Of a DNA stretch of 64,000 bases, positions 56,349-58,784 are shown piece by piece. Both the position numbers and the translations under genes were made by a program. The DNA lies in assembly GCF_900128725.1 (NCBI RefSeq), contig NZ_LT667500.1, positions 124,001 to 188,000 on the forward strand, written 5' to 3'. Source of the DNA: Buchnera aphidicola. Its GTDB lineage: Bacteria; Pseudomonadota; Gammaproteobacteria; Enterobacterales; Enterobacteriaceae. A model generated the notes under the pieces. It saw nothing but the letters and a program-made list of their open reading frames with translations, was not told where the DNA came from and made no database searches. Each line of letters starts with the position of its first letter. The stretch's first letter is position 1.

Positions 56349-58784
56349 ATGTTATTTAAAAATTTTTTTTTCATATTTTTTTTATTTGTTTCTACGACTA
56401 TTTCTATTGATAAGATAAGCTCGGTTAAAGATATTTTTTCAAATGACGTTCAAAGCAGGCGTATAGCGTTGGACTTACAAGCTATACAATCGCAAGAATG
56501 TATAAATAATAAAAACATGGATTTTTTGAAAACGGCTCAAGATTTATTTAGTAAAAATAATTTTGTGACTATAAATATCTCTAAAATAAAAGAAAAATCA
56601 ATTTATACAATGAATGATCGTATAATGATTGATGAAGTCAAGTTTTCTGGTAATCAGAATATTTCTGATAAGAATATTCAGGGATTGCTCAATCAGCTTA
56701 ATATTCAAAAAAATAATCTTTTTAATTTATATATGTTTCAAAAATATTTCTTTTTGTTAAAGCAAATGTATAACGATAGCGGATATTTTAATGCGCATTT
56801 TGGAGTTGATATTACACTTACTCCAGGCAATAGAGTGTGTATAAAGTTGGTTATTTCGGAAAATGCAGAATTTGGAGTATCTCGTGTTATTATTCGGGGA
56901 AACCAGAGTTTTTCTGAAGAAGAAATATTAAACCATGTTTCATGTTATAACACTAACTCTTTATGGAATTATATTATTTGTTATAAATATACGAAATCAA
57001 ACGTTGCAGTATTGTTGAATGATATAAAAAATTTTTATATGAAACATGGATTTGCGGCTTTTAAATTCGATATTGTAGAAATAGAACCTTCAAAACATAA
57101 TCCACAAGTCAGTATTATCATTACAGTCTGCGAAGGGTCGAGCGATCAAATACAAACCTCTAATACACAGCGATTGCCCCATAGCTGGCGTCAGATAGAT
57201 ATAAATAAGATTTCAAACAAACTATTAAATTCATTTAATGCTCATAACTATATTAATATAACGAAGAATAAAATAAAAAATGTTTTTATATCCTTTCGAA
57301 ATGCTTATGATTATGTGTTAAATTATGCAAAAGTCAGTCGAATAAATAAAAAGATATTAAAACATTTTCTCCTTAATGTCGATAATCCAAATTTACTTAA
57401 TAAAAAACGTTACACTAAAAGCAAAAATATGCGAAAGATAGCGCTAAACCAGGCTATTCGTCAAGACAAAAAAGGTTTTTTTCAAACCATTAAATTTACA
57501 AACCTATACAGCAAGTTATGTAAAAACCATTTATTTAAACCTATACGCAGTTATATATCGCAAAAATTAGGAATCGCCCACAACATAGCTTCCAGTTATT
57601 TATTTCAAAGTCAGAAGAATACAAGAACAACAAATATCTTTACTAGTTACGAGAAAGGTAGGGGCTTATTCGTTAATTTTTCTATTTTAGAAAAAAATTT
57701 GTTTAATTCTGGTAATCAATTGTATTTGAAGGTGCTAAAAAATATTTATGATACTAACCTTCAGTTATGTTTATTCAAACCATTGAGTATAGTTAAAAAT
57801 TTGATGTTAAAATCGAATTTATTCCTTAATATTTTACAGAAACGTGGTTATTTATTGCGTGACGGTATAAATAAAGTGTTGGGTCTGAGCTGCTCACTTA
57901 ATTCACCGACAATTAAAAATAAAAATTTTTCTATCGCTGGCGGATACGATAGCACGAATATTACGTACACATCTCCCCATACAGCGCTCTTGCGATATTT
58001 AGAATCGTTTCCTAAAAAACGTTTATTAAAAAAAAATATTCATAATTTTTTTATTCACGATTATTTTCTTAAGTGTATTTTTAATTTTAATAAAATTAAA
58101 GAAAAAAATTTTCAGAAATTAGGTACGCAGATACAATCGATATATAAATTAGTATTGCCTATTTCTGATAATTGTTATCACAAACTTTTTATTAGTTTAA
58201 ATCAATATACGCTATTAAAAAAAATATATAACATAATTATACATAATTTTTTAGAAATTGGTCTTGGCTCTTCTTTGGGAAATAGAGTTTTTCCCTTTTA
58301 TGAAAATTATAAATTTTATAAAAAAGAAACAAACAGTGCTTTTAAGGATAACTCAATTGGAACTCGTGCTGTATATTATCACAAAAAAAATGAATTAGCG
58401 CCTACTATAAACTTAAAGAACGGTTTTTCGCCAGATTTAAACTCTTCTTCTAGTGTTTTAGGGGGTAATATAATGGTTCACGCTAATATGGAAGTATTGT
58501 TTCCCGGCATACAAACATTCAAGAAATTATTTAAATTTTTTCAAGCGGGTTTATTTATAGATTTAGCGAGTATATGGGATACTCAATGGAAACAGGGTTT
58601 GCCATTATCTTCTGTTAAAAATTCTATTCCTTGCAATAAACCTAGTTGTCCGAATATATCTTTGGGTTCTTTTGTTCGCATCCATTCTTTTTTTTGCCCG
58701 TTGACATTTATGTTTGCTTTGCCAATAAGTGCTCATGATATCCCTAATCACTGTTTAGAAAATTTTAGTATTAATATTCGATAA
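56349..58784 (+). CDS. bamA: Outer membrane protein assembly factor BamA, degenerate
   Basis: Inserts beta-barrel proteins into the outer membrane (811 aa; E. coli 810). A hydrophobic signal peptide (about 1-20) is followed by three recognisable POTRA domains (about 25-91, 92-172 with IDEVKFSGNQNISD, 175-263 with VIIRGNQSFSEEEIL) and two badly diverged ones (264-420), then the barrel. Two hallmarks are lost. In loop 6 the E. coli FYENFY...VRGF...IGPKAVY stretch aligns without gaps to FYENYK...NSAF...IGTRAVY, so VRGF is NSAF (codons 58332-58343). The protein ends in ENFSINIR, stopping before the terminal GKTW of the beta-signal. It may be impaired or specialised. Confidence 0.93.
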   Translation: MLFKNFFFIFFLFVSTTISIDKISSVKDIFSNDVQSRRIALDLQAIQSQECINNKNMDFLKTAQDLFSKNNFVTINISKIKEKSIYTMNDRIMIDEVKFSGNQNISDKNIQGLLNQLNIQKNNLFNLYMFQKYFFLLKQMYNDSGYFNAHFGVDITLTPGNRVCIKLVISENAEFGVSRVIIRGNQSFSEEEILNHVSCYNTNSLWNYIICYKYTKSNVAVLLNDIKNFYMKHGFAAFKFDIVEIEPSKHNPQVSIIITVCEGSSDQIQTSNTQRLPHSWRQIDINKISNKLLNSFNAHNYINITKNKIKNVFISFRNAYDYVLNYAKVSRINKKILKHFLLNVDNPNLLNKKRYTKSKNMRKIALNQAIRQDKKGFFQTIKFTNLYSKLCKNHLFKPIRSYISQKLGIAHNIASSYLFQSQKNTRTTNIFTSYEKGRGLFVNFSILEKNLFNSGNQLYLKVLKNIYDTNLQLCLFKPLSIVKNLMLKSNLFLNILQKRGYLLRDGINKVLGLSCSLNSPTIKNKNFSIAGGYDSTNITYTSPHTALLRYLESFPKKRLLKKNIHNFFIHDYFLKCIFNFNKIKEKNFQKLGTQIQSIYKLVLPISDNCYHKLFISLNQYTLLKKIYNIIIHNFLEIGLGSSLGNRVFPFYENYKFYKKETNSAFKDNSIGTRAVYYHKKNELAPTINLKNGFSPDLNSSSSVLGGNIMVHANMEVLFPGIQTFKKLFKFFQAGLFIDLASIWDTQWKQGLPLSSVKNSIPCNKPSCPNISLGSFVRIHSFFCPLTFMFALPISAHDIPNHCLENFSINIR

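Follow-up and report, generated by a model that had tools for sequence, protein, structure and literature searches.

The VRGF/Y motif is conserved across the Omp85 superfamily (PMC4890855; PMC6887485), and in loop 6 of E. coli BamA it is reported to be stabilised by a salt bridge between R661 and E717 (PMC12505904). Residues 657 and 666 of that loop, beside the motif, crosslink to substrate (PMC6887485). In E. coli lacking both BamB and BamE, four of the six rescuing substitutions described lie near VRGF in loop 6 (Tellez and Misra 2012, as reviewed in PMC4890855), and suppressors of this type have been proposed to shift BamA toward an assembly-competent state (PMC6529638). The defects of bamB bamE and bamD strains have been attributed largely to jamming by RcsF, and the suppressors owe at least part of their effect to its prevention (PMC6529638; PMC12421809). 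BamD can itself be bypassed in E. coli (PMC12772190; PMC12421809), with BamB becoming essential in one bypass background (PMC12421809), and Fusobacterium nucleatum is cited as having a BamA without accessory lipoproteins (as cited in PMC12772190). Within Buchnera, the symbiont of Cinara cedri was reported to encode YaeT (BamA), OmpA, BamD and BamE and to have lost OmpF, SurA, DegP and LspA (Charles et al. 2011; PMC3246468); the symbiont envelope is also the subject of a further paper (PMC12176269). The titles and abstract openings of the papers listed yielded no report of a loop-6 change in Buchnera BamA, which is not to claim that none is in print.

The stretch of DNA analysed here, termed the window, comprises 64,000 nucleotides (G000:C1:124001-188000) of a Buchnera aphidicola genome of 456,703 bases in three contigs, and contains the bamA gene whose features are collected in Table 1. 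It was compared within a sample of 16 genomes of the same genus (main contigs of 416-448 kb), which are probably Buchnera of Cinara aphids. Outside the genus, 20 BamA proteins were picked among the smaller genomes with a PF01103 match, a choice that leaves aside at least six matched genomes of 0.7-0.8 Mb (G052, G061, G080, G130, G143 and G145) as well as G116, and 30 BamA from large genomes were taken as the best-scoring loci of a search of the family with PF01103, rather than as a random sample.

Table 1. Position of bamA and its parts in the window.
Feature	Position	Strand	Basis and remarks
bamA (yaeT)	56349..58784	+	811 codons and stop; frr upstream, fabZ then dnaE downstream; Pfam Omp85 and POTRA
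Putative signal peptide, about 20 residues	56349..56408	+	Hydrophobic N-terminus of the translation
POTRA2-3 region, still recognisable	56625..57140 (approximate)	+	25% and 22% identity to E. coli
POTRA4-5 region, scarcely recognisable; includes the E. coli E373 column (Lys here)	57141..57611 (approximate)	+	9% and 13% identity
Beta-barrel domain, by homology	57612..58781	+	Pfam Omp85 450-799; phmmer 422-809 to BamA barrel chains
Loop-6 tip (E. coli 647-674), PFYENYKFYKKETNSAFKDNSIGTRAVY	58293..58376	+	Alignment with E. coli BamA
NSAF replacing VRGF	58332..58343	+	Alignment
C-terminus ENFSINIR, ending at E. coli position 807	58758..58781	+	Translation and alignment

Homology identifies the gene clearly as a true bamA, even without the [VI]RG[FY] hallmark. 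It is the sole PF01103 match of its genome (83.2 bits against a curated cut-off of 24; E 3.2e-23), PF07244 matches it in two stretches (2.8e-17, the better covering residues 94-171), with the other POTRA domains placed by alignment only, and phmmer aligns residues 3-809 to an E. coli-type BamA chain at 1.7e-61. It shares with the E. coli protein this near-complete alignment, the residues F738, E717, D740 and G771, and the place between frr and fabZ, and differs in the loss of Arg661 and Gly662, in the stop at position 807, in the exchange of E373 for Lys and in POTRA domains 4 and 5. The latter had been called unrecognisable in the preliminary description, which holds: 7/81 and 10/77 residues are identical, compared with 98/381 (26%) in the barrel. 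The same description noted a full-length frame of 811 codons without stops; 46.8 stops would be expected from the gene's own positional base composition (P of none, 1.2e-21), and the other two forward frames over the gene hold 58 and 95. A long open bamA frame is kept in all 16 genomes of the genus. A single-sequence AlphaFold2 model of the window's BamA alone, in which a 16-strand barrel with loop 6 in its lumen was sought, had a mean pLDDT of 32.9, too low for the model to be of use. In one relative (G010; L014:1291-3003), BamA is an open frame of only about 571 residues, from which most of the POTRA region is deleted while the N-terminus and barrel remain.

A further departure is in loop 6. 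As first described, NSAF (residues 662-665 of the frame) faces V660-F663 of E. coli BamA with ungapped flanks; [VI]RG[FY] is absent and F663 alone remains. Column 661 is Ser in 12 of the 16 BamA of the genus, the window's included, and Arg in two (L013 and L015), while L016 and L017 have unrelated tips with Pro or Asn in this column, leaving Arg661 absent in 14. Outside the genus it is present in every one of the 50 BamA tabulated, 20 from reduced genomes (two of them with the variants IRCL in L049 and VRNL in L051) and 30 from large genomes of the same family, and the BamA of G073 reads IRGF by eye. The preliminary description would have been refuted had all other Buchnera BamA shown the same changes with proven normal function; they do not, five other lineages with the frr-bamA arrangement keeping Arg661. 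In G009 (L016), the tip of loop 6 in BamA contains an acidic insertion rich in Pro and Thr.

That the window's protein lacks VRGF, as had been claimed, is correct and yet an understatement, since the loop of the R661S clade has had its motif replaced by another, conserved one rather than erased. The new consensus is YENYKFY....KSGFxDNS[IV]GP. Asp665 is present in 12/12 clade members, and position 660 is Lys or Arg in ten, His in one and Asn in the window. Lys and Asn are frequent in AT-rich genomes, so that the Lys at 660 may mean little. With the window set aside, the tip (residues 647-674) has in the 11 remaining members of the clade a conservation of 0.857 against a barrel mean of 0.706, the 100th percentile of barrel segments of the same length, for a cut that takes in the formerly conserved flank PFYEN; the shorter segments 658-674, 660-663 and 661-671 rank between the 92nd and 96th percentile in the same 11. 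Of the acidic partners of Arg661, E717 is retained in 16/16 BamA of the genus and D740 in 15/16, with Glu in the remaining one, and both are kept in the window; together with F738 and G771, all four barrel landmarks, counting an acidic residue at 740, are thus present throughout. The window's protein retains N666 and departs from its clade by K660N, G662A and P670T, being the only one of the 12 in which Gly662 is changed.

This last change, confined to one genome of the clade, could be taken to point to an error of sequencing or assembly at 58332-58343 or at the stop codon, a possibility that had been raised at the outset. As the whole cause, such an error is highly improbable, because 11 further genomes carry R661S as well and none of the 16 retains the terminal tryptophan; the frame, moreover, is open over 811 codons.

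At the C-terminus, the absence of a terminal aromatic residue was likewise confirmed: in the alignment with E. coli the window's BamA ends with Arg in place of G807, and the final K-T-W is missing. The terminal tryptophan is lost in 16/16 BamA of the genus, and 14 of these have no aromatic last residue at all, the exceptions being L013 (Phe) and L014 (Tyr). Loss of the C-terminal aromatic is wider than that of Arg661 and not special to the genus, because it extends to four of the 20 reduced-genome BamA outside it (L051, L054, L063 and L066) and to G073. BamD has been reported to recognise the C-terminal beta-signal (PMC10945584), which fits an eroded end in BamA itself where this reader is missing.

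Components of the assembly machinery were sought with phmmer, using 49 E. coli proteins against the frames of at least 35 residues of the window's own chromosome (the two small contigs lay outside the search) at E up to 1. BamB, BamC, BamD and BamE had no match in this search, which is weak and no proof of absence, for it also missed a diverged OmpA described below. BamD was for this reason tested further. Its family PF13525 was over the cut-off in 0/16 genomes of the genus, compared with 14 of 30 other reduced genomes, and a weak, sub-cut-off BamD-like match in G004 was read as chance, lying on the strand opposite two frames that are shared with the window's genome. Between the rluD match and the gene that follows it, each of the 16 genomes has 319-509 bp, compared with 1125 and 1144 bp in two Buchnera-type genomes with bamD at this place; bamD is gone from its syntenic position throughout the genus sample. 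BamE (PF04355) was matched in 0/16 genomes of the genus and in 4/30 other reduced genomes. The machinery differs in this from the E. coli BAM complex and also from that reported for the Cinara cedri symbiont (PMC3246468), which is alike in keeping YaeT and OmpA and in the losses of OmpF, SurA, DegP and LspA, but for which BamD and BamE were reported; here neither was found in any of the 16 genomes, G010 included.

BamA itself carries marks that are consistent with this loss. POTRA5 is the docking domain for BamD; in G103 and G022 no other domain is as well conserved, but in the core members of the genus its identity is 10-22%. In E. coli, exchange of E373 for Lys weakens BamD binding (PMC11592675). 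This residue is Glu in 20/20 references (six large genomes and 14 reduced genomes with a BamD match) and Lys in 13/16 genomes of the genus, among them 12 of the 13 core members, with Ser, Ile or Leu in the rest. Of 14 conserved acidic columns, 373 is the only one to become mostly basic in the 13 core members; columns 362 and 797 have lost their acid in 13/13 without turning basic. The link between E373 and BamD is not strict, because four of six other tabulated genomes without a BamD match retain E373 (G021, G105, G137 and G146). Two further columns were set aside. E470K bypasses BamD in E. coli, and Lys occupies this column in 7/16 members of the genus (Gln in the window), yet also in L052 and L058, which have a BamD match, and this removes its diagnostic value. 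F494L acts as a suppressor in E. coli (PMC6529638), and the window has Leu, but the change is common and adjoins an alignment gap, and was given no weight.

In a tree built from seven proteins encoded nearby, for which four other frr-bamA-fabZ lineages served as outgroups (these having data for part of the proteins only), R661S falls on a single branch that unites 12 genomes, the window's among them, with a support of 100. The pair G011/G013 splits off just before this branch and retains Arg, the tip disappeared independently in the basal pair G009/G014, and G004 is the window's closest relative in the sample (support 82). R661S is later than the loss of BamD, and BamD and BamE are missing also from G011 and G013. 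Because these two keep Arg661, loss of the lipoproteins alone does not explain the change.

Two readings of the rewritten loop compete most closely. In the one we favour, at about an even chance on the sequence evidence assembled here, BamA would act as an insertase on its own for few clients, with a loop 6 that has been rewritten and is relaxing further in the window's lineage. The main rival, possible though clearly less probable, is late decay, in which an outer membrane with little or no demand for barrel assembly leaves bamA, though its frame is as yet uninterrupted, to drift toward a loss already seen elsewhere. Such losses do occur, and the lineage of the window may be moving toward one: no bamA stands between frr and fabZ (with dnaE) in G066 (L177) and G106 (L173), and PF01103 is missing from 8/149 genomes of the family, seven of which also gave no match to a profile of the genus; this profile search matched G073 but is insensitive, having missed G116, where PF01103 had found the gene. 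Beside frr in G047, a genome with no PF01103 barrel, there is a stretch (L170:41-428) that resembles E. coli BamA residues 9-149.

Rates of change speak on both sides. In seven close pairs of the clade, none of which involves the window, omega for BamA is 0.29-0.57 (OmpA 0.31-0.58; other neighbours 0.02-0.59) and is lower in the barrel than in the POTRA region in every pair, which answers a comparison that the preliminary description had proposed and argues, like the long open frame kept in 16/16 genomes and the retention of F738, G771, E717 and the acidic 740 in every protein including the window's, against a gene that merely drifts. The loop-6 tip is also more conserved than the rest of the barrel: over its 29 residues, six pairs gave nonsynonymous to synonymous changes of 16:22 compared with about 520:327 in the remainder, a difference whose Fisher p of 0.026 is nominal, as pairs share branches. 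At deep distances, BamA pN/pS rises to 0.91-1.01 (five pairs, of which three involve the window) compared with 0.19-0.66 in other genes. A ratio near 1 would suit decay, but it probably stems from saturated synonymous sites, synonymous differences being 0.36-0.51 in all genes at these distances, and the window's own lineage is therefore not scorable by this measure. Counts of broken columns, that is, columns invariant among the representatives, speak for decay. The window breaks 72 of these in BamA compared with 9-27 in the others, whereas its dnaE is ordinary (29 compared with 15-31), and in two further genes it is highest by a small margin (16 compared with 3-15 and 11 compared with 3-9). 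OmpA, with 19 broken columns compared with 1-9, follows BamA, and both are accelerated in the window's lineage. The deletion of most of the POTRA region in G010 would also fit a gene under decay.

The inventory of possible clients bears on what BamA may still do. In the single-sequence search of the window's chromosome (E up to 1), no match was obtained for SurA, Skp, DegP, LspA, LolA, LolB, LolC or LolE, nor for TolQ, TolR, TolA, TolB, Pal, LptD, LpxB, LpxC, LpxK, OmpF, OmpA, MraY, MurC or FtsI. The lpxA and lpxD queries both matched weakly one other protein (0.001 and 0.019), and those for lolD and msbA the same two ABC-transporter frames; SecA, SecY and LepB are present. LspA is missing in 15/16 genomes of the genus, with a match in G014 only (G014:C1:107608-107961), and is matched in 4/4 other frr-bamA-fabZ lineages. 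A profile of the genus recovered OmpA in the window's genome (C1:263769-264956, minus strand, 1.9e-60), which makes a diverged OmpA the sole barrel protein found among the few sought. Fifteen of the 16 genomes have a Pfam match to OmpA, 14 over the cut-off, the window's being the one without. The last barrel strand of OmpA conforms to GxxWx[L/F], as counted by eye, in 9/16 (G001, G002, G004, G006, G007, G008, G010, G014 and G015); elsewhere it reads GxxFxL in the window, keeps Trp and Phe and loses Gly in G011 and G013, has Arg for Trp in G009, and Cys for Trp in G003, G005 and G012. The OmpA of G014 (L115) contains a long Pro/Ala/Glu-rich repeat within the barrel domain. A short FlgH-like fragment (weak, 0.005) and FlgI-like fragments at G000:C1:268827-269472 are perhaps remnants of flagellar ring genes.

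The preliminary description had proposed a machine reduced to few substrates or one with a changed job, in an envelope that had lost other layers. The first part fits these searches, which are weak where they used single sequences, and fits OmpA as the only outer-membrane protein found; a changed job has no positive evidence. If assembly activity had been given up and the barrel had become a diffusion pore or a protein conduit in place of OmpF, the missing OmpF match (single-sequence search of the window's chromosome) and the retention in G010 of a barrel stripped of most of its POTRA region would be understandable. The C-terminal kink of the barrel plays a role in the lateral gate of BamA, and the loss of G807 and the last three residues would alter it, which would likewise suit such a change of job. 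This alternative is nonetheless quite unlikely: no positive sign of a transport function was seen, and OmpA is kept in 16/16 genomes, in nine of them with a last strand like a beta-signal, as would be expected only of a protein that is still being inserted.

According to the preferred reading of an insertase working alone, BamA would still fold as an Omp85 barrel and insert a very small set of proteins, OmpA and itself, without BamB-E. In the absence of the lipoproteins that hold the barrel in its active state, the change in the loop may re-set the barrel alone, by analogy with the E. coli bamB bamE double mutant, and the salt bridge of Arg661 may have been taken over by a Lys nearby (653 or 660). 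The loop of the clade would then be a fixed version of a suppressor-type change in a lipoprotein-free machine, and the window's lineage may have moved on from there, shedding some of the new motif as BamA and OmpA accelerate. The likeness to the E. coli bamB bamE suppressors, as far as these are described in the sources cited above, lies in loop-6 changes near VRGF when accessory lipoproteins are missing; those, however, are single laboratory substitutions with BamD present, whereas here the tip is rewritten and BamD is gone too. The parallel may not carry over to the clade, being weakened by the role of RcsF jamming in much of the E. coli defect. The described likeness to Fusobacterium nucleatum is that assembly is assigned to BamA alone, and does not include loop 6 or the clients. 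Counting against the preferred reading is the report that an E. coli deletion taking out the RGF tip is non-functional (PMC3871556). A stronger version, that the whole clade has reached a second stable solution to the loop-6 lock, in which the otherwise universal arginine is replaced, the charge is shifted to a neighbouring lysine and BamA works without accessory proteins once BamD, the docking at POTRA5 and its own C-terminal signal have been lost, is rather doubtful, and can be advanced only tentatively from the alignments.

A clade that lives without Arg661, and with a BAM machinery in which no lipoproteins were detected, constitutes a natural test of the roles of loop 6 and of BamD. The genomes compared here also form an ordered series in the dismantling of an outer membrane, in which BamD was lost, the loop was then rewritten and further erosion followed in the window's lineage, with some other lineages having no bamA.
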